A DNA stretch of 43,880 nt, taken from Nocardioides sp. (GTDB lineage Bacteria > Actinomycetota > Actinomycetes > Propionibacteriales > Nocardioidaceae). The position numbers were made by a program, and so were the translations under genes. Shown here piece after piece: positions 6,157 through 27,074 of the stretch (positions are counted from its first letter, which is position 1; every line of letters starts with the position of its first letter). Where the stretch lies: NCBI GenBank assembly GCA_025965125.1, contig JAOPXM010000115.1, positions 1 to 43,880 of the forward strand, given 5' to 3'. The notes beneath the pieces are model-generated. The model was not told the origin of the DNA and did not search any database. It worked only from the letters and a program-made list of their open reading frames with translations.

Positions 6157-6777
6157 ATGTCAAGGGCCTACGAAGCATCCGGCCGCGTGCGCCAGAAGGA
6201 GCGCACCCGGGCCGCACTGGTCGCGGCGGCGCGGGACCTGATTGCGGGCGGCGTCCCCGCGCCCACGGTCGGAGCGGCAGCCGCCGCTGCCGACATCTCC
6301 CGCACGACCGCCTACCGCTACTTCCCCGACCAGCGATCCCTGCTGGTCGCGGCGCACCCCGAGATCGACATCGTGTCGCTGCTCGACCGGGACACCGCGC
6401 CCGACGTGGAGAGTCGCTTCCGCGCGGCGGTCGGAGCCTTCACCGATCTCGTCGTCCGCACCGAGGACCAGCAGCGGACCATGCTCCGGCTGTCCCTCGC
6501 CGCATCCGATCAAGCGCCTGCGCTCCCCCTTCGGCAGGGTCGCGCCATCGGCTGGTTCGCGGAGGCACTCTCGCCCCTTCGCGAGGAGTGGGGAGAGGAG
6601 GGCATCCTGCGCCTGGCTGTGGCCGTCCGCAGCGCCATCGGCATCGAGGCACTCATCTGGCTGACCGACGTCGGCGGGCTGTCCGTCCCGGCCGCGGTCG
6701 AGGTCATGCACTGGACCGCAGCGTCGCTGCTGCAGCAGGCACTCGCCACGGGGCCACCCCCGCGCAGTCGCGGCTGA
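6157..6777 (+). CDS. TetR family transcriptional regulator
   Basis: 206 residues. The N-terminal helix-turn-helix is clear: RTRAALVAAARDLIAGG, then ADISRTTAYRYFPDQRSLL (about residues 45-63). The C-terminal helical ligand domain has no recognisable subtype. It is divergent from the cupin gene and the shared spacer holds a perfect 22-bp palindrome, so it probably represses both itself and the cupin gene until a ligand binds. The ATG at 6157 lies 12 bases after a TAAGAT -10 element, so the transcript may be nearly leaderless. Confidence 0.93.
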   Translation: MSRAYEASGRVRQKERTRAALVAAARDLIAGGVPAPTVGAAAAAADISRTTAYRYFPDQRSLLVAAHPEIDIVSLLDRDTAPDVESRFRAAVGAFTDLVVRTEDQQRTMLRLSLAASDQAPALPLRQGRAIGWFAEALSPLREEWGEEGILRLAVAVRSAIGIEALIWLTDVGGLSVPAAVEVMHWTAASLLQQALATGPPPRSRG

Positions 6778-6877
6778 CGCCGAACTACGGCTCGGTGGGA
6801 ACGAGTTGCCGCGGCGGCGGGCCAAGCAGCTCGACGATGGCGGGGACGCCACCTGGCTTGGCGGAGTAAGTATCCCT

Positions 6878-6883
6878 TAGGCT
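6878..6883 (+). promoter_or_regulatory. -10 element of a predicted leaderless psuK mRNA
   Basis: TAGGCT at 6878-6883 stands 7 bases before the psuK ATG and there is no Shine-Dalgarno sequence, so transcription should start at or next to the start codon. The rest of the 6778-6890 spacer has an imperfect inverted repeat (GCCAAGCAG near 6821 and CTGGCTTGGC at 6854-6863) that could be a regulator site. Confidence 0.55.
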
Positions 6884-6890
6884 GATAAGC

Positions 6891-8000
6891 ATGACCTTGA
6901 CCGAGCGCGAACGCGAGATCGTTGCACTGCTGCGTCGCGACCCGCTGATCGGTTCCCAGGGGATGGCCGCGGAGCTCGGCACGACGCGGGCCGCGGTGAA
7001 CGTGCATCTCTCCAACCTCGGCAAGAAGGGCGTGATCCTCGGCCGGGGCTACGTGCTGGGCGACGAGCCGCCCGTCGTCGTGATCGGTGGCGCGAACATG
7101 GACGTCAAGGCCCGCAGCGCGACGACCGCCGTAGCCGCGACCAGCAACCCGGGCACCGCCTCGATGACGGCGGGAGGAGTCGGCCGCAACATCGCGGAGA
7201 ACCTGGCCCGGCTCGGCACTCGCACCCACCTGGTGGCTGCGGTCGGCAGCGACGCCCTCGGCGACCAGGTGCTCGCGGCGACATCGGGTGCCGGCGTGCA
7301 TGTCGAGCACGTACGACGCAGTGCGCGCGCCACCGGCACCTACACCGCCGTGCTCGACTCGGACGGTGAGCTCGTGGTCGCGGTTGCTGACATGGCCGCC
7401 ACGGACGAGCTCTCGCCCGAGCACGTCAGTGCCGCCCGCGACCTGATTGCCTCGGCCGGCCTCGTCGTGCTGGACGGCAACCTCGGCGCCGCAGCCCTGG
7501 AGCTGGCCCTCGACCTGGCATCGGCGGCCGGGGTCCGGGTGCTGCTCGAGCCGGTGAGCGTGCCGAAGGCCAACGCGCTGGCCCACCTGATCGAGCCCGG
7601 GCGTCCCCTCTTCGCGATCACTCCCAACCGCGACGAGCTCACCGCGCTCACCGGCCTGCCGGCGCGCACCGAACGACAGCTGACGACCGCGGTGCGGGCG
7701 CTGCACGTGCGGGGCGTGGTCCACGTGTGGGTCCGGCTTGGTGCGCGCGGCTCGTTGCTGAGCGGGGCCGGTGAGTCGATCCGTCTCGATGCCGCACCGG
7801 CCGACGTCGTCGACGTCACCGGTGCCGGCGACGCCATGCTCGCGGCGTTCTGCCATGCCCTGCTGGCGGGCGACAGCCCCGGGCAGGCCGCGGCGTACGG
7901 CCATGCCGCCGCCGCTCTCACGGTCGCCAGCCCCCACACCGTCCGCGCTGACCTGACCGACCGGCTCGTCAGGGCCCTACAGAGAGAAGTGGTCAGATGA
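6891..8000 (+). CDS. psuK: Pseudouridine kinase with N-terminal winged helix (PfkB family)
   Basis: 369 residues. Residues 1-55 form a winged helix-turn-helix (TEREREIVALLRRDPLIG, then TTRAAVNVHLSNLGKKGVI), and residues 60-365 a PfkB sugar kinase with GGANMDVKA, the GGVGRNIAENLARLG signature near residue 95 and the catalytic loop DVTGAGDAM with Asp314. This architecture matches YeiC-type kinases that phosphorylate pseudouridine to pseudouridine 5'-phosphate. The next gene, overlapping by 4 bases, is the matching glycosidase, which makes the substrate assignment firm. The N-terminal domain suggests self-regulation or DNA binding; no operator can be named. Cytoplasmic. Confidence 0.92.
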   Translation: MTLTEREREIVALLRRDPLIGSQGMAAELGTTRAAVNVHLSNLGKKGVILGRGYVLGDEPPVVVIGGANMDVKARSATTAVAATSNPGTASMTAGGVGRNIAENLARLGTRTHLVAAVGSDALGDQVLAATSGAGVHVEHVRRSARATGTYTAVLDSDGELVVAVADMAATDELSPEHVSAARDLIASAGLVVLDGNLGAAALELALDLASAAGVRVLLEPVSVPKANALAHLIEPGRPLFAITPNRDELTALTGLPARTERQLTTAVRALHVRGVVHVWVRLGARGSLLSGAGESIRLDAAPADVVDVTGAGDAMLAAFCHALLAGDSPGQAAAYGHAAAALTVASPHTVRADLTDRLVRALQREVVR

Positions 8001-8911
8001 CCCACCCCATGCTGAGCCTGACCGACGAGGTCGCCAGCGCACTGGCGGACGGCACCCCCGTGGTCGCGCTGGAGAGCACGATCATCAGCCACGGCATGCC
8101 CTACCCGCAGAACGTCGCGATGGCCCTCGAGGTCGAGGGCATCATCCGAGAGCACGGTGCCGTGCCGGCCACGATCGCGATCCTCGACGGGCGGCCCCGG
8201 ATCGGACTGGACGCCGACGACCTCGAGCTGCTCGCCAGCCACGGCGACGTCACCAAAGTGAGCGTGCGGGACCTACCGTTCGTCGTCGCCCGCGGGACGC
8301 ACGGCGCGACGACCGTGGCCGCGACGATGCGGCTGGCAGCGCTGGCCGGTGTCCGGGTCTTCGTGACCGGAGGACTGGGTGGTGTGCACCGCGGCGCCCA
8401 GCAGACCTTCGACGTCAGCGCCGACCTGACCGAGCTGGGCGCGACCGACGTGGCCGTCGTGAGCGCGGGGGTGAAGAGCATTCTCGACATCGGCCTGACG
8501 CTGGAAACCCTTGAAACGCTGGGGGTTCCGGTCCTGGCCTACGGCAGCGACGAGTTCCCGTCGTTCTTCTCGCGCAGCAGCGGGCACGCGGCCCCGATGC
8601 GTGTCGACTCGCCCGCCGAGGTGGCCGCTGTGATGCGTGCCAAGTGGGACCTCGGCATCTCCGGTGGGCTGGTGATCGCGAATCCGATTCCCGTCGACGA
8701 CGAGATCCCGGCCGACGAGATCGGCGGCATCATCGAGCAGGCGTTGGCCGACATGGATGCGCTCGGCATCCACGGCAAGGACGCCACCCCGTACCTCCTC
8801 GGCCGCATCGTCGAGATCACGGGAGGTGCCAGCCTGACGGCAAACATCGCGCTCGTCCGCGACAACGCACGGCTGGGTGCCGCGATCGCCCGGGAGTACG
8901 CAGCGTCCTGA
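7997..8911 (+). CDS. psuG: Pseudouridine-5'-phosphate glycosidase
   Basis: 304-residue enzyme that splits pseudouridine 5'-phosphate to uracil and ribose 5-phosphate, breaking the C-C glycosidic bond. Family signatures: ALESTIISHGMPYPQN near residue 24, GTHGATTVAATM near 99, FVTGGLGGVHRGA near 120, GVKSILDIG near 157, and GKDATPYLLGRI near 256. The start overlaps the psuK stop by ATGA, showing translational coupling. The products feed the pyrimidine and pentose pools, and the pathway recycles modified bases from RNA turnover. The fusion gene at 8931 starts 19 bases later. Confidence 0.96.
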   Translation: MTHPMLSLTDEVASALADGTPVVALESTIISHGMPYPQNVAMALEVEGIIREHGAVPATIAILDGRPRIGLDADDLELLASHGDVTKVSVRDLPFVVARGTHGATTVAATMRLAALAGVRVFVTGGLGGVHRGAQQTFDVSADLTELGATDVAVVSAGVKSILDIGLTLETLETLGVPVLAYGSDEFPSFFSRSSGHAAPMRVDSPAEVAAVMRAKWDLGISGGLVIANPIPVDDEIPADEIGGIIEQALADMDALGIHGKDATPYLLGRIVEITGGASLTANIALVRDNARLGAAIAREYAAS

Positions 8912-8930
8912 GATGCGGCAGGGTGTCACC

Positions 8931-10640
8931 GTGCACTACGTCGGGATCGACCTCGCCTGGGGCGAGAAGCAGCCCACGGGGCTGGCGGTGCTCGACGCCG
9001 AAGGCCGGCTGCTGCACGTCTCGACGGTGCGCACCGACGAGCAGATCGCGATCGCGCTCGCGCCGTACGTCGAGGGCCCTTGCCTGGTCGCGATCGACGC
9101 CCCCCTGATCGTCAGGAACGCGACGGGGTCGCGGCCGGCGGAGAAGGCGCTGAGCAAGGACTTCCGTCAGTTCGACGCAGGGACGCATCCGTCCAACACC
9201 GGGAAACCCGAGTTCGCGAACGGGACCCGCGGCGCTCGGGTCTGCAAGCTGCTCGGTCTCGACATGGATCCGCGCTCGGGCAGAGACCGCCGGGCGATCG
9301 AGGTCTACCCGCACCCAGCGACCGTGGTGCTGTTCTCGCTCGGTCGCATCCTGAAGTACAAGCAGAAGCAGGGCCGGGACCTCGAGCTGCTCCGCAGCGA
9401 ACTGCTCACGTTGATGCGCCATGTCGAGGGAGTCGTCGAGACGGACGTCAACTGGGTCGGGATGCGCGCCCGCGTCGAGACGGCCACCCGGAAGAGCGAG
9501 CTACGGGTGGTCGAGGACCAGGTGGACGCGGTGATCTGTGCGTACGTCGCGCTGTTCGCCGAACGCTGGCCGGCCCGCACCACGACGTACGGAGACTTCG
9601 AGACCGGCTACATCGTCACCCCGGCCCTGCCGGACGGGAGCGACGCCCTGCGCGCCGCGATCCAGGAGTACGCCGCGCAGCAGCCAGCTCTCGCGGAGGC
9701 CGGACGCCTTGCGGTGGAGCTGGTGACCGCGATCCTGGACGAGGCCGGCATCAACTACCTGAGCGTCAGCGGTCGCACCAAGGGCGTCAACTCGTTCGCG
9801 GAGAAGGCCGGGCGCACCGTTGACGGTCGGCTGATGTACCCCGACCCGCTGCGCGAGATCACCGACCAGATCGGGGTCCGGGTGATCACCTATGTGCACA
9901 GCGATGTCGCGGCGGTCGCGGGTCTGCTCGGTGAGCAGGTGGTGGTGCACGACGACCGCGACATGGGTGAGGAGACCGCGAGCGAGGGCAGGTTCGGCTA
10001 TGCCAGCCGGCACCTGCTGATCGGGTTGGACGCCGCCCGAGAGGGCCAGCCGGCGTACGAGACGCTCCGTGGGCGGGTGGCCCAGGTGCAGATACGAACC
10101 GTGCTCCAGCACGCGTGGGCGGAGTTCGAGCACGACATCCGCTACAAGGGCACGATCCCCGACGAGCACGTTCGCGACTTCGACCGGCGGTTCACGCTGG
10201 CGGCCGGGTTGCTCGAGCTGGCCGACCGCGAGTTCTCGACGATCCGCGACCGGCTCCGGACCGGTCCGGCCGAACGCGTCGAGGCGCACGACGACGACCC
10301 GCGCATCGACCCGCGTGAGCTCGCCGCCTTCCTCGCTGGTCAGTACGCCGATGCCGGCTGGTCGCGCACCGAGCACTACGCGTGGATCTCCGGGCTGTTG
10401 CTCGAGCTCGGCGTCACGTCGCTCGACGAGCTCGGCGACGTGCTGCGGCCGGTGGACGATCTCGGCATCAACGAGCGGATGGAGTACCGCTACCCGCCCG
10501 GTGCCGTGCGCCGGCTCGACGATGCCCTTCTCGCCGTCTTCGGCGAGCAGTACGTCGGCCTGCACGGCAATGCGCACCGGGCGCCCCTGCTCCGGCAGCG
10601 TCTCGAGAAGATCATGGGAGCCGCGGGCGCCGTCGGGTGA
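8931..10640 (+). CDS. DUF429 RNase-H-like domain fused to a RelA/SpoT (p)ppGpp synthetase domain
   Basis: 569 residues. Residues 1-235 match DUF429, a predicted RNase-H-fold nuclease: VHYVGIDLAWG with Asp7, then LVAIDAPLIV, an IEVYPHPA segment and a final VEDQVDAVICAYVAL. Residues 245-420 form a RelA/SpoT synthetase domain: SGRTKGVNSFAEKAGR (about 280), REITDQIGVRVITYV with Asp312, GRFGYASRHLLIGL, then QIRT (387-390) and LQHAWAEFEHDIRYKG. The remaining ~150 residues are helical and unassigned. In the usual EXQIRT motif the Glu is Gln385 here, so synthetase activity is uncertain. GTG at 8931 has AGGG 7 bases upstream; ATG at 8913 is the alternative. No HD hydrolase domain is present. Mycobacterial RelZ is a comparable RNase HII-RelA/SpoT fusion, but with a different nuclease. 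Confidence 0.85.
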   Translation: MHYVGIDLAWGEKQPTGLAVLDAEGRLLHVSTVRTDEQIAIALAPYVEGPCLVAIDAPLIVRNATGSRPAEKALSKDFRQFDAGTHPSNTGKPEFANGTRGARVCKLLGLDMDPRSGRDRRAIEVYPHPATVVLFSLGRILKYKQKQGRDLELLRSELLTLMRHVEGVVETDVNWVGMRARVETATRKSELRVVEDQVDAVICAYVALFAERWPARTTTYGDFETGYIVTPALPDGSDALRAAIQEYAAQQPALAEAGRLAVELVTAILDEAGINYLSVSGRTKGVNSFAEKAGRTVDGRLMYPDPLREITDQIGVRVITYVHSDVAAVAGLLGEQVVVHDDRDMGEETASEGRFGYASRHLLIGLDAAREGQPAYETLRGRVAQVQIRTVLQHAWAEFEHDIRYKGTIPDEHVRDFDRRFTLAAGLLELADREFSTIRDRLRTGPAERVEAHDDDPRIDPRELAAFLAGQYADAGWSRTEHYAWISGLLLELGVTSLDELGDVLRPVDDLGINERMEYRYPPGAVRRLDDALLAVFGEQYVGLHGNAHRAPLLRQRLEKIMGAAGAVG

Positions 10641-10647
10641 CGATCCG

Positions 10648-12405
10648 CTACTTGATGGTCACACTTGCTTCGGCCGCTGCAGGTGTGAGGGAAGGACTGC
10701 CCAGATAGTCCACGTTCACGGTGTACTGCCCGGGCAGGAACGACCTGAACCGAGGGGTTGCCCTGCCGTTCACCAGGTCCACCGTCCTCGTTCGCAGGTG
10801 GATCCGCACGGTCGCCTGGCCGGTCGGGGTCCCCGCCACTCCTGGCGGTGCGGTCACCTCGATGTGCACCACCGCCCGGCCGCGCCTGCCAATGGTGCGC
10901 AGGGACACGGTGGCAGGGGCGGTGACCAGCCCGTCGACCGTGAGCAGCTGGGTCGCTGACTGGTAGCCCGGCTTGGTCACGTCGACGCGGACCGTCAGCT
11001 GCGTGCCGACGTCTTCCGGCACGGTGCGGTACGACGCGCGGCTGGCCCCGACGATCTCGGCCCCGTCCCGCAGCCAGGCATAGGCCGGTGTTGCGTCCGG
11101 GGGGGTGAAGGCACCCGGCTGGACCGTGAGCTTCTCTCCGAGAGCGGGCGTGCCGGTCACGGCCGCGGCCTGCGTGATGGTCACGGTCGGCTGCGCCGTG
11201 GCGTGAAACTTGTCGATGCGTGCCGCGGCCCGCTTGCGGATCAGGGGCAGGGAGTCATACAGGTGTTGCCCGGGACAGGCGGTGTCATTGGTGTCCCGAT
11301 GTCCGTCGATCACGGGAAGATCGACCACCTGTCTCGATCGATACTTGTCGCTGCCCTCCGAAAGAACCTCCGCATGTCCCATTGGCTTGCGGCCGTAGAG
11401 GTCGAGCTTCCAGGCGGCCACCCTCACGATGGCACTCAGCATTGCCGCCGTCGGGGTCACCAGCTCGAAGTTGCCAATGGCCGACACTCCGGTCGAGGTC
11501 GCGTTGAAGCCGAGCGTGTGGGCACCCCGCACGGGGCGCGCCGCGCCGCCGGCCCGGCCGACCCAGAGTCTTCCGAACCTGTCGACCAGGAAGTTGTAGC
11601 CGATGTCGGACCAGCCGAGATTGCTGGTGTGGTAGCGATACATACCGCGAATGAGTGCGGGGACATCCGCCTCGGAGTAGTCGTTGCTGTTCACGGTGTG
11701 GTGGACATGAACCTGCTGGATGGTCGAGTTGTAGCTGGGTGTGCCATCGCGCCAGCTCTCATCCGCACCCCAGTCGCTACGGGTCAGGATGGCCGGTCGC
11801 GGAACCGCGGGATCGACGGCAGCCCGTGAAGCTCGGTCCGAGCGGCCAACGCCGACCCGGCTCGCCGTGACCATCCCATCACCTGGTCGTGGTGCTGGAC
11901 GGAGAAGCACCAACGTCAGCTCACGCGGTCGGGACCCCGCCACCTGCACCTGGATTCCGTCCGAGTCACCTATCCACACCAGCTCCGTGCCGACGACACC
12001 CGTGCTCTCGCCCGAGTCGTCGTCGGGCAGGTCGTGAAGGATGGGGAGCCGCTGCCAGGGCCGCCACGCGCCGGCCACACGCGACCTGATGTGGATGTGG
12101 GGGTGCCCGTCGTTCGCGTGCCAGGTGAACGCAACCATCGAGTGGGTCGACGTCGGCAGGTGAGCCGACCGCCACCGATGCGGCGACACCTGGGGCAGCA
12201 GGGCATCACCCAGCCTGACCTCGAGCGAGCCCACGTCCGACCCATAGCTCGAGGAGAGCTCGAGCGTCGGCAGCCCCGCGAACTCGTGAGCCGACTTGTC
12301 CTGTGACCCGCTGAGCTTGGCCGCCGCTCCGACGGCCCCGATGGCGACCACGCCACCGGCCAACGCCTTCAGCAGTGGTCGACGACGGGTTGGCACAGGC
12401 TCCAT
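10648..12405 (-). CDS. Secreted PGRP/N-acetylmuramoyl-L-alanine amidase family protein
   Basis: 585 residues. The N-terminus RRRPLLKALAGGVVAIGAVG resembles a twin-arginine or Sec signal. Residues 205-395 are a PGRP/amidase_2 domain: ILTRSDWGADESW, zinc-type His in VHVHHTVNSNDY (His235/236), IGYNFLVDRFGRLWVGRAGG, and DGHRDTNDTACPG, which supplies the second His and Cys ligands. The catalytic set looks complete, so cleavage of the MurNAc-L-Ala bond is expected. The C-terminal ~180 residues contain two Ig-like or bacterial-surface repeats (PALGEKLTVQPGAFTPP and a VSLRTIGRRGRAVVHIEV segment). The stop lies 7 bases from that of the convergent fusion gene. Confidence 0.9.
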   Translation of the reverse strand: MEPVPTRRRPLLKALAGGVVAIGAVGAAAKLSGSQDKSAHEFAGLPTLELSSSYGSDVGSLEVRLGDALLPQVSPHRWRSAHLPTSTHSMVAFTWHANDGHPHIHIRSRVAGAWRPWQRLPILHDLPDDDSGESTGVVGTELVWIGDSDGIQVQVAGSRPRELTLVLLRPAPRPGDGMVTASRVGVGRSDRASRAAVDPAVPRPAILTRSDWGADESWRDGTPSYNSTIQQVHVHHTVNSNDYSEADVPALIRGMYRYHTSNLGWSDIGYNFLVDRFGRLWVGRAGGAARPVRGAHTLGFNATSTGVSAIGNFELVTPTAAMLSAIVRVAAWKLDLYGRKPMGHAEVLSEGSDKYRSRQVVDLPVIDGHRDTNDTACPGQHLYDSLPLIRKRAAARIDKFHATAQPTVTITQAAAVTGTPALGEKLTVQPGAFTPPDATPAYAWLRDGAEIVGASRASYRTVPEDVGTQLTVRVDVTKPGYQSATQLLTVDGLVTAPATVSLRTIGRRGRAVVHIEVTAPPGVAGTPTGQATVRIHLRTRTVDLVNGRATPRFRSFLPGQYTVNVDYLGSPSLTPAAAEASVTIK

Positions 12406-20840: not shown

Positions 20841-21757
20841 GCGGCGAGGACCACGTCGGCACCCTCTCCCTCTCCGGCATCCGCTACTCCGTCAACGGCG
20901 GCTCACGGACACTGCTCGAGGACATCGACCTGGAGTTCCGCGCGGGAGAGCTCACTGCCCTGTCCGGGCCCAGCGGGTCCGGCAAGACAACCCTTCTCTC
21001 GATCGCCGGTGGCCTCGTCGAGCCAACGACGGGCAGCACGTCGTACGACGGGAAGTCGATGTGGCAGGGCAGCGGCGACCCCAGACCCGAGGTCGCTTTC
21101 GTGTTGCAGGTCTACGGCCTCGTGCCGATCCTGTCCGCCCGCGAAAACGTCTCGGTGGCGCTGCGGGCGCGCGGGGTCCGGCCCGCCGAGGCCGACGAAC
21201 GGGCCGAGGCCGCGCTGGCGAGGTTCCACATCGCCGACCTCGGCGACCGTCAGGTCGAGGAGCTCTCGGGTGGCCAGATGCAACGGGTCGCCTGTGCTCG
21301 CGGGCTCGTTGTCGACTCGGGCGTGCTCCTCGCTGACGAGCCGACCTCCGAGCTGGACGAGGGCAACCGCAGCCTGGTCCTGGCCGAGCTCCGCAAGGAG
21401 GCCGCCCGCGGTGCCGTCGTAGTGGTCGCCACGCACGATCCCGCGGTCGTCGATGCCTGCGATCGGCACTACGTCCTCGACGAGGGCCGGTTGACCGATC
21501 ACGTCGCACCCGTCGACATGTCGCACTTCGCCCACCCCGAGCGACGGCTGGTCGAGGAGGCTGTCCCCCCGCGCTTCCACGAGACCCCGGCCCCCGCTCC
21601 CGCACCGGTCTCGAGGGGGCCGGAGCCGAGGGAGCGCGACGACGCGGTCGAAAGGACGCCATACGTCGGCCGCCGGATCCGCGCCGACGCGGAGGCGGCC
21701 GCGGACGAGGACCGGGACGCCGCGTTCCGGCGGCCCACCGGCGACGGGGGCCCATGA
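20837..21757 (+). CDS. ABC transporter ATP-binding protein 2
   Basis: 306 residues, likewise LolD/MacB-like. Walker A GPSGSGKTT near residue 42, signature LSGGQMQRVACARG near 145, Walker B VLLADEPTSELD with a normal D-loop, and switch His in VVATHDP. After the core (about residue 225) there is a long charged, Pro/Ala/Arg-rich tail of ~75 residues (PAPAPAPVSRGPEPRERDD and following), likely disordered. GTG start overlaps the previous stop by GTGA, with GGGGGAGG upstream. Probably forms a heterodimer with ATP-binding protein 1, since two different permeases follow. Confidence 0.9.
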   Translation: MSGEDHVGTLSLSGIRYSVNGGSRTLLEDIDLEFRAGELTALSGPSGSGKTTLLSIAGGLVEPTTGSTSYDGKSMWQGSGDPRPEVAFVLQVYGLVPILSARENVSVALRARGVRPAEADERAEAALARFHIADLGDRQVEELSGGQMQRVACARGLVVDSGVLLADEPTSELDEGNRSLVLAELRKEAARGAVVVVATHDPAVVDACDRHYVLDEGRLTDHVAPVDMSHFAHPERRLVEEAVPPRFHETPAPAPAPVSRGPEPRERDDAVERTPYVGRRIRADAEAAADEDRDAAFRRPTGDGGP

Positions 21758-24039
21758 TCCGCACCCTCCGGGGCGCCTGGTCCCGTCGAGGGACCCTGCT
21801 GCCCCTACTGCTCCTCACCCTGGTGGTCACGGCCGGAGCCGTCTGCGTCCTCGGGTTTGCTGGCGCGGCCGGGACGTCGCCGATGCTCGCCGTACCCCTG
21901 CTCCTGCTCGGCGCGATCGCGGTCCCCGCCACCGGCCGTGAGCTCGCGATCGCCCGACGTCGCGAGGTCGCCCTGGCCCGGCTTCGTGGACTCGAGGGCG
22001 GTTCCCTGTGGACGCTGCTCGCGGTCGAGCCGCTCCTGGTGCTCCTCGTCGGTGGGGCCCTGGGCATCGGCCTGGGTGCCGTGGGGAGCCGGCTGACCTC
22101 GGATCTCTGGGTCGAGGCACCGGCGTCGGGCGTGGGACCGGGCGCGGTGCTCGCCGGTCTCGCGATCGTGGCGGTGGGGCTGGTGGTGGTCCTGGCCGGC
22201 ATGGCCGGTGCATTGCGCGAACCACTCGCCGACCAGGTCAGCATCGCATCGCGTCCTCGCGCGGCATCGACGACGGCCACGTTCCTGAACGTGCTGCTGC
22301 TGGTGGCTGCCGTGGTCGCCGTCTACCGCAGCTCGGCCGGTGCGGGTGGCGACCCGGACTGGGTCGTGCTCGCCGGGCCGGCGCTCGTCGGACTCGCTGT
22401 CGGCCAGGTGGTCGTCTGGCTCGTGCGGATCCTGGCCAGGGTCGGCGTCGGCCGAACCACGAACCGGTCCCTGCCCGCCTTCCTCGCCGTCCGCCGTCTC
22501 GCCCGGGTCGCCGACGCCGCGACCGCGCTCCGAGTCCTGGTGGCGGCCGCGGTCGTGGCGGCGCTCGCAATCACCGGGGCGACCCAGGTCGACGAGTGGA
22601 CCGCCGACACCGCCCGACTGCGGGCGGGAGCCCCCCTCGTCGTCGACCTCGACGGCGACGCGATGTCCGCGTTGTCCCTGACCCGAGACCTCGACCCGGA
22701 CGGTCGGTGGCTGATGGCGGCCGTACTCGTCCCGGGCCAGGGCAGCCTGCCCGCCCGTCGGGCGTTCCTGGACACCGCTCGCTACGACGCCGTCGTGGGC
22801 GACTTCCTGTCGGGTACGCCGGCGGCCGGCGTCTCCCGCAGCATCGCCGACCTCGGCGGAGGTGACCCGGGCATCGCCACCGGGAACACCGCCAGCATCA
22901 CCGTGCGCGGGGTGAGCAGCCGGGTCTCCGGAGCAATCCGGCCGCGGATCGCGGTGGCCTACCGCAACCCCGCCGGACTCACCGACACTGTCGTGTTCCG
23001 CATGGACGTGGGCTTGGACGGCGCCGAGACCACAGCGACCCGTCCCCTGGAGAACTGTTCCGCGGGCTGCGTCGTCACCGGGCTGACCATGAGCGGGAGC
23101 ACCGACGCCCAGCGCCCCTGGATCCTCAGCGGTCTCGACTTCGGCGGCATCGACGCCCTGGCCGGCGACTGGCGCGCGGTGCCCACGACCCCGCCGGCGG
23201 GCGTGCGCCCCGTCGCGGTCATCTCGTCGGCCGAGGGGCTCCTCTTCCCGGCCACCGACGCCACCCTCCAGACATTCCCCGTCACCACCGGACCAGTCCT
23301 GCCGGTGCTGGCCACCGACACGGTCGACTGGGCCGGTGCGCCGCCCCAGGTCGACTCGCCCGGCGGGGACGAACGCCAGGCGCAGATCCTCGGCACCCTG
23401 CCGGCGCTGCCCCTGGTGGAGGCCGACGGGCTGTTGGCCGATCTGCCGCGCGCGGCGGCGGGTGCGCCGCCGACCGTCCCCGCGGCCGAGGTCATGGTGC
23501 TCGCTCGCAGCGACACTCCCCCTGACGTGCTGACGAAGTTGGTCGCGGCAGCCGGGCACGGGATCCGCACCGTTGCCGACGTCAGGTCCACGACCGCGAA
23601 TCAGACGGGCGCCGTACAGGCTCGGGTCTACACGCTGCTGGCCGGGTTCTGCCTCTTGGTCGCACTGCTGGTGCTGGGGGCGTCGGTGGCCAGGCAACGA
23701 TCCGCCTGGCTGCTCGACGTCGCCGCGCTGAGGGTCCTGGGCGTCCGCCCTTCCCAGCTCCGCAGGGCCGGCCTGACCGAGGTGTTCGTGCTGACCCTCG
23801 TCGGGGTCGCGGCGACCGCCGCCGGCTCCGTGGTCGCGGTGCGCCTGCTGCTCGCGCACCTCGACCTGGTCGCCGTGCCGGAGCACGCCATACCCCTGCA
23901 GACGTACGTCGCGGTGCTCCCGATCGCGGTGGCCGCTGGGGCGGTGGCCGCGGTCGTGGTGCTTGTCAGCGGGCGGGGTCGCGGCATCCAGCTCGCCCGA
24001 AGCGCACCCGCGATCCTCCGCGAGGAGGCCGCCCCGTGA
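21754..24039 (+). CDS. FtsX-like ABC permease 1
   Basis: 761-residue integral membrane protein. About seven hydrophobic helices lie in residues 15-280, then a large segment of ~340 residues expected outside the membrane (about 285-620), then three helices that form an FtsX domain (VYTLLAGFCLLVALLVLGAS, EVFVLTLVGVAATAAG, YVAVLPIAVAAGAVA). The exposed segment contains LDPDGRWLMAA at 313-323 and a Cys435-x3-Cys439 pair, both also found in permease 2. ATG start overlaps the preceding stop (ATGA). Role in lipoprotein, lipid or peptide handling is inferred from the ABC class only. Confidence 0.85.
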   Translation: MIRTLRGAWSRRGTLLPLLLLTLVVTAGAVCVLGFAGAAGTSPMLAVPLLLLGAIAVPATGRELAIARRREVALARLRGLEGGSLWTLLAVEPLLVLLVGGALGIGLGAVGSRLTSDLWVEAPASGVGPGAVLAGLAIVAVGLVVVLAGMAGALREPLADQVSIASRPRAASTTATFLNVLLLVAAVVAVYRSSAGAGGDPDWVVLAGPALVGLAVGQVVVWLVRILARVGVGRTTNRSLPAFLAVRRLARVADAATALRVLVAAAVVAALAITGATQVDEWTADTARLRAGAPLVVDLDGDAMSALSLTRDLDPDGRWLMAAVLVPGQGSLPARRAFLDTARYDAVVGDFLSGTPAAGVSRSIADLGGGDPGIATGNTASITVRGVSSRVSGAIRPRIAVAYRNPAGLTDTVVFRMDVGLDGAETTATRPLENCSAGCVVTGLTMSGSTDAQRPWILSGLDFGGIDALAGDWRAVPTTPPAGVRPVAVISSAEGLLFPATDATLQTFPVTTGPVLPVLATDTVDWAGAPPQVDSPGGDERQAQILGTLPALPLVEADGLLADLPRAAAGAPPTVPAAEVMVLARSDTPPDVLTKLVAAAGHGIRTVADVRSTTANQTGAVQARVYTLLAGFCLLVALLVLGASVARQRSAWLLDVAALRVLGVRPSQLRRAGLTEVFVLTLVGVAATAAGSVVAVRLLLAHLDLVAVPEHAIPLQTYVAVLPIAVAAGAVAAVVVLVSGRGRGIQLARSAPAILREEAAP

Positions 24040-27000
24040 TGGCGATGTTCGGCACCGTCCTGCGGGGGCTCCGGTCGCGGGCGCTGCTGTCGGCCGGCTC
24101 CGTGCTCCTGACGGCGCTGGCGATCGGCTCGGCGGTGCTGGCTCCGATCTTCCAGCTCGCCGTGACGAACTCCTACCTGGTCACCCGGCTCGACGAGGCC
24201 CCCAACAAGCTCACCGCGCTCACCTGGCGGTTCTCACCTGACCGCCAGGTCGACGGCTCCGCAGAGGCGTCCCGGCTGGCAGGTGCGGCCGCCGCGCGCG
24301 CCACCGGTCCGTTCGCGGCACCGCAGACCGTGCTGGAATCCGCCCGCGTCGACGCCTACGGCGGGCTCACCAAGCTGGGCGCCAAGCCCGGAGCGTGCGA
24401 CCACCTCGAGGTCCAGGGCAAGTGCCCGGACGCGGTCGGCGAGGTGATGCTGCTCGGGGCCGACCTCGACTTCACCGGGACCGAGATCGGGGACCGCGTC
24501 GACCTCGGTGCGCTCGGGAAGGTCACGGTGGTCGGCACCTACCGGGTTCCGGAGTCCGAGGCCGACTACTGGGTCAACCTCGAACGCTTCGCGAGCACGC
24601 CGCCCCACCAGTCGCGCGACGGCACGACGCCCTACCTGCCCGCACCCTGGATCACCGTCCCCGAGGCCTTCGACAAGCTCCCCGCGGACCTCTGGTCCGT
24701 GCTGGTCGATCGCCGGCTCGAGGTGCCGCCGGACCTCGAGCTGGCCGACATCGACCAGGCCGAGCGGGCGGCCGCGACCCTGGCCGGTCCGGCCAGGCCC
24801 GTGCCGGGGGGTCGGCTCAAGGGCGACTCCATCAACGACGTCGCCGGCATCGCCGACGAGGCACGGACGCAGCAGGACACGGCTCGCTCCTCGATCGCGC
24901 CCGCGGTGATCTCGCTCGTGCTGGTCGCGCTGGCCCTGCTGCTGCGTCTGCTGATGGCGGCGGCCGACCTACGGCTGCCCGAGCTGGCCCTGGCGTCGCT
25001 GCGCGGGCTCGGTCGTCGGCAGATGTGGTCGCTCGGGCTCTCCGAACCGGTGAGCCTGCTCGTCCTGTCCGTGCCGATCGGCGGGACTGTCGGGATCGGC
25101 CTGTCGCTGACGCTGGTCCGGTGGTGGCTGGTTCCGGGGCTTCCGTTGCCGCTGCCCTGGACGGCACTGCTGACCGGAGCGGCGGTCGCGGTGGCAGCCC
25201 TGGGCGTCGCGTTCCTGGCCGTGGGACTGGTGTTGCGGGTCTCGCTGTCGGAACAGCTCACCGGCGTACGCCGGCCGCGCGCCCCGGGGCGGACCGCCCT
25301 CGTCGTCCAGCTCGTGCTCGTCGCCACGGCGGCAGCGATCCTGGCCAGCAAGCTTTCGTCCGCCCGGCCGGGGGATCCCGACGTGACGGACCTGGTCCTA
25401 CCGGTGCTGCTCGCTGTCGTGGCCGGCGTGGCCGCCACCCGGCTGACGGCCGGGGTCGCGACCTGGTGGACCCGGACCAGGGCCCGCACCCGCTCCCTGC
25501 CCGGCTTCGTCGCGGCCCGGGCGATCAGCCGACGCCAGGAGGGCACCCTGGTGATCCTCCCGGTGACGGCGGCCATCGCCATCTGCGTGTTCGGGGCCGG
25601 CGTCTACGACTCGGCCGGGCAGTGGCGGGCCAGCGTCGCGGCCACCGCGGCTCCCGCTCCCGTCGTGTGGAGCTCACCCCTGCCGATGGCCAGCACCGTC
25701 GACCTCACCCACCGCCTCGACCCGGACGGCCAGTGGCTGATGGCGGCGAGCACCATGGCCACGCAGGGTCCGTCGTACACCGTCATGGACACGACGCGGC
25801 TGAGTCGGGTGGCGTCCTGGCCGGACCAGTGGACCCCGGGGGTGAGCACCGACGAGATCGCCGCCGCTCTCGGCGTGCAGGCAGTGGTGCCGACCCTCAC
25901 CGGCACCCGGGTCGGCCTCACGGTCGACCGCACCGACCTCGAGTCCGGCGACGACATCGTCGTCAGGCTGCGCCTCAATGCGCCGAACGACCGGATCCGC
26001 TACGTGTTTCTCGGTCCCTTCTCCCCGGGCACCACGAGCATCGAGGGGGCCATGTCGTTCTGCCGGGTCGGGTGTCAGCTCGAGGGGATCACCATCGGTG
26101 GCCCGGCCGCGACGACCACGCCCCTCAAGGGGGTCGTCCGTATCTCCGGCATAGCGGTCGATGGCAGGCCGGTATCGGGCGCGATCAGCGGAGCCGGGTG
26201 GTCCCGTGCCCAGGATGCCTCCGCCGGCGCGGCGATCGCGAGGGTCGAGGCCGAGGGGGAGGAACTGGTCGTGACCCTCGACTCCGAGGGGACGCCGATC
26301 ATCGCCCAGCTGTCGGCCGGGGCGATTCCGGACGCGTTGCCCGTCGTGCGCGGCGTCGACGCGGAGACGGTCGCGCGTGGAGGCGCCTCCACGGACATCG
26401 AGAGCAACTTCCCCGTCGACTCGGTGTTCACCGCTCGCAGCGTCCCACTGCTGGGGCCGATCGGCCTGCTGATCGACTACACGATGCTCGCCACCGACCG
26501 GACGCTCTACGAGCAGAACCTCCCGGTCTACGTCCTCGCCCGCGCGGACACCCCGACCTCGGTCACCAACGGCCTGCGCGACAACGGGATCACGGTCGAC
26601 ACGACGCTGGCGGAGGTCGAGAACACCCTCGACCAGAGCGCGTACGCCCTGGCCCTGCGCCTGTACGCCGTCGTCGCCGTACTCGTCCTGCTGATGGCGC
26701 TGGCCGGATTGTTCGTCAGCACCGCAGTGCAGCTCCCGTCCCGGCGCCGCGACGCGGCATCGCTGCGCGTGGTCGGCGTCTCCCGGCGGGCAGTGATGTC
26801 CGCCGTGGTTCGCGAGTTCGCCGTCGTACTCGGTGGCACGGCGGTGGCCGGCCTGGCCGCGGGAACGCTGGCGCAGTACGTCGTGCTGCGGACGGTCACC
26901 CTCGGCTACGTCCAGGACCTCACCACGCCGGCCCTGATCGCGGCGGTCGACTGGGGTCGCCTGGCGGTCCTCTCGGCCATCACGGCAGCGGTCTTCGGTG

Positions 27001-27074
27001 TGGTGGCGCTGGCCAGCGCGGCCCTGACGGTCCGGGGGGCGCGGGGCGCGACCCTGCGGGAGAACGCTCGCTAG
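24036..27074 (+). CDS. FtsX-like ABC permease 2, large
   Basis: 1012 residues. One N-terminal helix (about 12-40) is followed by an exposed domain of ~240 residues with GACDHLEVQGKCP, then a helix cluster (about 287-530) containing an FtsX unit (LPELALASLRGLGRRQMWSL), a second exposed segment of ~330 residues with LDPDGQWLMAA at 561-571 and Cys676-x3-Cys680, and a closing FtsX unit (about 870-1010: VVAVLVLLMALAGLFVSTA, then RRDAASLRVVGVSRRAVMSA). GTG 24036 overlaps the previous stop (GTGA); ATG 24039 is one codon further. Larger than permease 1 by the extra N-terminal exposed domain. Last gene of the operon. Confidence 0.87.
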   Translation: MMAMFGTVLRGLRSRALLSAGSVLLTALAIGSAVLAPIFQLAVTNSYLVTRLDEAPNKLTALTWRFSPDRQVDGSAEASRLAGAAAARATGPFAAPQTVLESARVDAYGGLTKLGAKPGACDHLEVQGKCPDAVGEVMLLGADLDFTGTEIGDRVDLGALGKVTVVGTYRVPESEADYWVNLERFASTPPHQSRDGTTPYLPAPWITVPEAFDKLPADLWSVLVDRRLEVPPDLELADIDQAERAAATLAGPARPVPGGRLKGDSINDVAGIADEARTQQDTARSSIAPAVISLVLVALALLLRLLMAAADLRLPELALASLRGLGRRQMWSLGLSEPVSLLVLSVPIGGTVGIGLSLTLVRWWLVPGLPLPLPWTALLTGAAVAVAALGVAFLAVGLVLRVSLSEQLTGVRRPRAPGRTALVVQLVLVATAAAILASKLSSARPGDPDVTDLVLPVLLAVVAGVAATRLTAGVATWWTRTRARTRSLPGFVAARAISRRQEGTLVILPVTAAIAICVFGAGVYDSAGQWRASVAATAAPAPVVWSSPLPMASTVDLTHRLDPDGQWLMAASTMATQGPSYTVMDTTRLSRVASWPDQWTPGVSTDEIAAALGVQAVVPTLTGTRVGLTVDRTDLESGDDIVVRLRLNAPNDRIRYVFLGPFSPGTTSIEGAMSFCRVGCQLEGITIGGPAATTTPLKGVVRISGIAVDGRPVSGAISGAGWSRAQDASAGAAIARVEAEGEELVVTLDSEGTPIIAQLSAGAIPDALPVVRGVDAETVARGGASTDIESNFPVDSVFTARSVPLLGPIGLLIDYTMLATDRTLYEQNLPVYVLARADTPTSVTNGLRDNGITVDTTLAEVENTLDQSAYALALRLYAVVAVLVLLMALAGLFVSTAVQLPSRRRDAASLRVVGVSRRAVMSAVVREFAVVLGGTAVAGLAAGTLAQYVVLRTVTLGYVQDLTTPALIAAVDWGRLAVLSAITAAVFGVVALASAALTVRGARGATLRENAR

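Follow-up and report, generated by a model that had tools for sequence, protein, structure and literature searches.

The window, the whole stretch of 43,880 nucleotides from Nocardioides sp. that was analysed, carries a relZ-type gene that translates as a single intact frame of 569 amino acids, from a GTG start to a stop codon (Table 1). An alternative GTG at 8877 would give a longer product but runs into the preceding gene, and the residue that homologous frames align with 8931 is of a start type (Val in 21, Met in 18 and Leu in 1 of 52 rows, with gaps in 12); on these two grounds, 8931 is the likely start. Pfam searches retrieved a DUF429 domain (98.2 bits against a cut-off of 23, E = 7.5e-28) and a RelA_SpoT domain (54 bits against a cut-off of 27, E = 2.3e-14) as the sole matches of the protein at E ≤ 1, with none to RNase_HII (PF01351) and none for the approximately 115 conserved residues at the C terminus. 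The original prediction of one uninterrupted frame joining DUF429 to RelA/SpoT thus holds, as does its numbering of Asp7 in GIDLAWG and of QIRT at 387-390; each half has its own Pfam match above the cut-off, and the mismatch of the N-terminal half with DUF429 that had been feared is absent.

Table 1. Features of the relZ-type gene and of its upstream neighbours in the window
Feature	Position	Strand	Basis
PfkB-family kinase gene (psuK-like)	6891..8000	+	Pfam PF00294; name psuK inferred from neighbour
psuG-like gene (Indigoidine_A family)	7997..8911	+	Pfam PF04227
relZ-type gene (DUF429, RelA/SpoT synthetase and conserved C-terminal extension)	8931..10640	+	Translation of 569 aa, Pfam, homologues
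DUF429 domain, residues 5-211, probably RNase H-like	8943..9563	+	Pfam, conserved residues, model
RelA_SpoT synthetase domain, residues 281-407	9771..10151	+	Pfam; PDB sequence and fold matches to RelQ/RelP
Gln385 codon, at the place of the Mg-binding Glu of ExQIRT in other synthetases	10083..10085	+	RelQ alignment
C-terminal conserved region, residues ~450-565, mostly helical	10278..10625	+	Invariant alignment columns, helices in model

The psuG-like gene, whose product is by family presumably a pseudouridine-5'-phosphate glycosidase, ends 19 bases upstream of relZ on the same strand and overlaps the PfkB-family kinase gene by four bases. Homologues of both genes lie directly upstream of relZ in 5 of 20 other Nocardioidaceae neighbourhoods, and psuG or psuK is found within about 6 kb of it in three more of the 20. 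Because the salvage of pseudouridine belongs to RNA turnover, this occasional link to relZ is suggestive, and only that. A consensus scan from 6700 to 10800, with a consensus that may not fit this organism, retrieved no sigma-70-like promoter and no terminator. Elsewhere in the window, 21754-27074 is taken up by two large frames, one after the other, that match FtsX permeases.

The RNase HII activity of Mycobacterium smegmatis RelZ (MSMEG_5849, also MS_RHII-RSD; 64.5 kDa in print) has been ascribed to a domain named Duf429 (PMC4429107). An N-terminal DUF429 was described by Atkinson in 2011 for the actRel proteins of M. smegmatis, M. gilvum, and M. vanbaalenii (PMC3153485), DUF429 was found with RelA/SpoT in Actinobacteria and, within the RNase H-like superfamily, assigned to the RuvC/YqgF clade (PMC3985635), and Ruwe in 2017 noted that Mycobacterium and Marmoricola have the fusion (PMC5566576). 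Full-length proteins of the mycobacterial group, represented in the alignment by 46 of 67 located fused loci, share 56-62% identity with the window protein over its whole length. Their carriers include M. wolinskyi (L095), M. rhodesiae (L057), and M. vanbaalenii (L090), the last of which is already in print with the DUF429 fusion, and this supports the identity with RelZ. Because the “RNase HII” of RelZ is DUF429 and the mycobacterial proteins align along the whole length, the window protein is, judged by sequence, an orthologue of RelZ/actRel, with both domains of RelZ in unchanged order and membership of the same actRel subgroup. The original prediction had rightly pointed to RelZ as a precedent for a nuclease-plus-alarmone protein but erred in placing the nuclease here in a different family, a separation that goes back to the description of RelZ as an RNase HII fusion. 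The architecture has been in print since 2011, and the gene is a further, soil-actinobacterial member of the family.

Several related proteins share parts of this design. The unfused actRel RelS of Corynebacterium glutamicum (cg2324), compared by its published description, likewise combines a synthetase with a long extension within the actRel subgroup, but it has no DUF429 (PMC5566576). RelQ and RelP (YjbM/YwaC) have the synthetase fold and the conserved motifs of the C-terminal half, but they are short, single-domain proteins with the glutamate of ExQIRT present and no nuclease. Stand-alone DUF429 proteins (PADLOC PDC-S44) have the same domain and the same conserved acids as the N-terminal half but no synthetase; M. 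tuberculosis MT0800, considered here by name alone, has been named as one of them (PMC4429107).

Some match to the window protein is found in 118 of 149 Nocardioidaceae genomes. A near-full-length single match was counted by hand in 44 of the 149, the window's own genome included, and four further genomes with matches in pieces proved to be fused once the loci were read. Another 30 of the 149 (a hand count; 28 of the 30 were read) carry the synthetase half without an adjoining DUF429 match. In the mycobacterial genus, a match of some kind occurs in 254 of 297 genomes, and among the matches listed, 89 of the 297 have the full-length protein (also counted by hand) versus at least 60 with DUF429 only. 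Altogether 152 of the loci read were classed as fused, a number that takes in the window's own locus, some genomes twice, and one locus cut by a contig end (L085). A survey of fused architectures, as had been proposed, thus shows them to be frequent in both groups, and fused copies across so many Nocardioidaceae and mycobacterial genomes exclude a frameshift or an assembly join as the origin of the fusion. As a separate observation, one RelZ copy (L271) has its DUF429 and synthetase parts in two different frames.

The model of the whole protein (mean pLDDT of 86.3, pTM of 0.52) retrieved only RelA/SpoT-type structures among its best 50 matches, and the C-terminal half matched the structures of RelQ and RelP with E values from 5.5e-8 to 8.2e-6. 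Gln385 aligns with the Glu of the ExQIRT motif of RelQ, and residues 281-420 match residues 77-209 of 6ewz, which places position 385 at about residue 174. In Staphylococcus aureus RelP, Asp107 and Glu174 hold the Mg on the ATP analogue (PMC5794853). The Mg-binding Glu of ExQIRT is absent from the window protein, with the remaining motif residues and the fold kept. This loss is nearly complete within the clade: position 385 is Ser in 150, Gln in 45, Thr in 1, and Glu in 1 of 197 RelZ-clade loci, a set in which the window is counted and some loci are repeated. Residues R282, K284, S288, K292, D312, R317, Y357, H361, Q387, R389, H394, E398, and E400 are invariant (197/197), and position 352, which was also checked, is variable.

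All 20 of the more distant RelA/SpoT relatives compared have glutamate at the equivalent of position 385, including the nearest of them, a protein from another genus of the Mycobacterium family that is 38% identical (L135). A single fused protein within the RelZ clade also keeps Glu385 (L042); its identity with the window protein is about 54%, and it offers a natural enzyme for comparison. In a maximum-likelihood tree computed with column 385 removed, the distribution of Glu versus not-Glu needs two changes, which would most simply be a loss at the base of the RelZ clade and a regain in L042. The mycobacterial-group loci differ from the window protein in that all of them have Ser at this position (93/93, with some loci counted twice), and Ser is therefore expected at the corresponding residue of M. 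smegmatis RelZ. A second difference lies in the neighbourhood, which is psuK/psuG-like in the window and purB in the mycobacteria.

For the E. coli RelA, we take Glu335 to be the glutamate of ExQIRT. The catalytically inactive form of that enzyme is E335Q (PMC12421884, PMC4432633), and the synthetase half of the window protein, given Gln385 at the presumed same position, may be dead. With the Mg-binding Glu replaced in 196 of the 197 loci, the RelA/SpoT half could then be a pseudo-synthetase that makes no alarmone and that binds guanine nucleotides, alarmone, or RNA and so regulates the DUF429 nuclease. We consider this unlikely, because the 13 other checked positions are all invariant, unlike those of typical pseudoenzymes, because M. 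smegmatis RelZ, whose kin have Ser, is reported to make alarmones (PMC7591505), and because the Nocardioidaceae genomes that keep the synthetase without DUF429 beside it indicate that it acts without the nuclease. A replacement that is itself conserved, in an otherwise intact set of residues, suggests that metal is used differently and not that the site has decayed, and a rebuilt metal site would fit the Mg-independent activity of M. smegmatis RelZ that is cited in PMC5566576. The same paper describes RelS and Rel of C. glutamicum as deviating slightly from ExQIRT. No description of a clade-wide loss of the Glu was found in the literature searched, within the portions available, and the primary RelZ papers may show it.

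In the DUF429 half, D7, D56, E124, H128, E195, D196, and D199 are invariant in 108 of 108 fused rows. The same residues together with E71 are kept in all 42 stand-alone DUF429 rows, distant ones included, and the acids among them are candidate metal-binding residues. Because the search with the whole-protein model returned only RelA/SpoT-type structures among the best 50, this half was modelled alone (residues 1-236, pLDDT of 94.3). The resulting model has no PDB fold match at E ≤ 0.001; the best match is a sugar kinase (E = 1.4e-3). Structure prediction gave RelQ/RelP-type matches for the C-terminal half and weak matches only for this one. The 50 weak matches listed, among them phage RuvC, TEFM, SPT6, a terminase nuclease, and sugar kinases, are what we take to be largely RNase H-like and ASKHA-type folds. 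These matches are consistent with a RuvC-like nuclease fold, in line with the published assignment of DUF429, and this agreement is not proof. Three distant stand-alone DUF429 proteins (L206, L207, and L216) have frames that continue beyond the domain by some 100 residues or more and are possible other fusions.

Of 149 Nocardioidaceae genomes, 143 carry RNase HII proper (PF01351), and DUF429 as a replacement for it was therefore rejected. No PF01351 match was retrieved from the draft genome to which the window belongs, which comprises 257 contigs and is 92% complete; all six genomes that lack one, this genome among them, are drafts of at least 220 contigs, and for this reason the absence is read as missing sequence.

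The presence of a dedicated RNase HII, the assignment of DUF429 to the clade of RuvC, resolvases, and terminases (PMC3985635), and the weak fold matches would also suit a defence or DNA-processing nuclease in place of an R-loop ribonuclease, as would the match of the DUF429 half (8931-9638) to the PADLOC candidate-defence family PDC-S44 at 3.3e-81 and of the synthetase half to PDC-S33 at 2.5e-7. This role is very unlikely, however, as PDC is only a candidate label, the mycobacterial gene is fixed beside purB (60 of 62 fused loci and all 25 stand-alone ones, counted where both genes were found), unlike mobile defence islands, and cleavage of RNA:DNA hybrids and R-loops has been reported for RelZ (PMC7591505).

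The preferred reading, to which we assign a probability of about 0.72, is that of a Nocardioidaceae orthologue of RelZ that would act as an R-loop nuclease and a pGpp/ppGpp synthetase, as is reported for its M. smegmatis counterpart. According to reviews, the latter cleaves RNA:DNA hybrids and R-loops, makes pGpp, ppGpp, and pppGpp with a preference for GMP, is inhibited by single-stranded RNA and by pppGpp, forms a hexamer, and is induced by UV (PMC7591505, PMC8622095). Its halves are described as inactive when apart, yet when one active site is killed the other still works (PMC7591505, PMC8622095), and a nuclease coupled to alarmone synthesis is the published model of RelZ. By analogy, the N-terminal half, as a putatively RNase H-like DUF429 domain, would cut the RNA of RNA:DNA hybrids and R-loops. 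The C-terminal half, as a small alarmone synthetase of the actRel/RelS type, would transfer pyrophosphate from ATP to a guanine nucleotide, giving pGpp or ppGpp. R-loops would in this way be cleared while stalled RNA polymerase is helped free, and the RNA product would shut off alarmone synthesis. That the synthetase acts on another 3'-hydroxyl, such as that of nuclease-made RNA, in the manner of CapRel-type tRNA pyrophosphokinases is highly improbable: the altered active site, a fold match to CapRel, a tRNA pyrophosphokinase of Salmonella (E = 3.6e-5, poorer than that to RelQ), and the reported GMP preference and inhibition by single-stranded RNA, possibly through substrate competition (PMC7591505), fit it, but the best matches are RelQ and RelP, which are true alarmone synthetases, and the reported RelZ products are alarmones.

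The two halves have nevertheless been separated repeatedly. A tree built on 77 rows of the synthetase half has fused proteins interspersed with unfused ones and requires at least 13 changes, 5 of which are forced by well-supported branches; in it, the unfused L245-L247, which have Gln385, nest among the fused proteins of the window's family. In the tree of the DUF429 half (75 rows), at least 6 changes are needed, 5 of them forced, and a single clade of fused rows was rejected (AU p = 0.00095, for a group already seen mixed in an earlier tree). The mycobacterial stand-alone DUF429 nests inside RelZ at more than one place; the stand-alone L205 also nests there, on a long branch that makes its placement unsure. 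A divergent purB (named from Pfam in L090) lies within 320 bases of the DUF429 match in all 25 mycobacterial stand-alone loci read (L185-L204, L217-L221). Among 63 fused loci examined (L055-L116, L120), 62 yielded a purB, and it is likewise placed in 60 of these. A TetR-type gene near the fused gene of L090 also occurs in 19 of the 25 stand-alone and 56 of the 63 fused loci.

No synthetase remnant follows the stand-alone DUF429 in the same frame past the stop, and its flanks of about 0.5 kb contain no synthetase match in frames of at least 80 residues. Stops that were flagged in matches from the mycobacterial genus proved to be alignment overrun. Change counts alone cannot separate gain from loss, but the nesting, the shared purB locus, and the rooting favour loss, and in the mycobacteria it is the synthetase half that was most likely lost in place. 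Outside the mycobacteria, as read from the trees, the DUF429 half went missing, and the fusion broke up repeatedly. That either half has been kept by itself argues for an independent role of each. Such natural stand-alone halves put a strain on the published inactivity of the separated halves, and it is possible that the stand-alone forms have adapted, which would reconcile the two.

Taken together with the Glu replacement, these data point tentatively to RelZ as a synthetase lineage in which the Glu was swapped and which may still be active with a rebuilt metal site, perhaps with an unusual acceptor, and whose halves, each being kept alone, would be functional alone; we hold this as a possibility somewhat short of even odds. 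The RelZ fusion is frequent both in the family of the window and in mycobacteria, and the recognition that the “RNase HII” of RelZ is DUF429, and hence that this fusion is RelZ, corrects a likely misreading. It presents two puzzles, namely, how a clade of synthetases works without its Mg-binding Glu and why domains that are said to be interdependent have repeatedly been separated.
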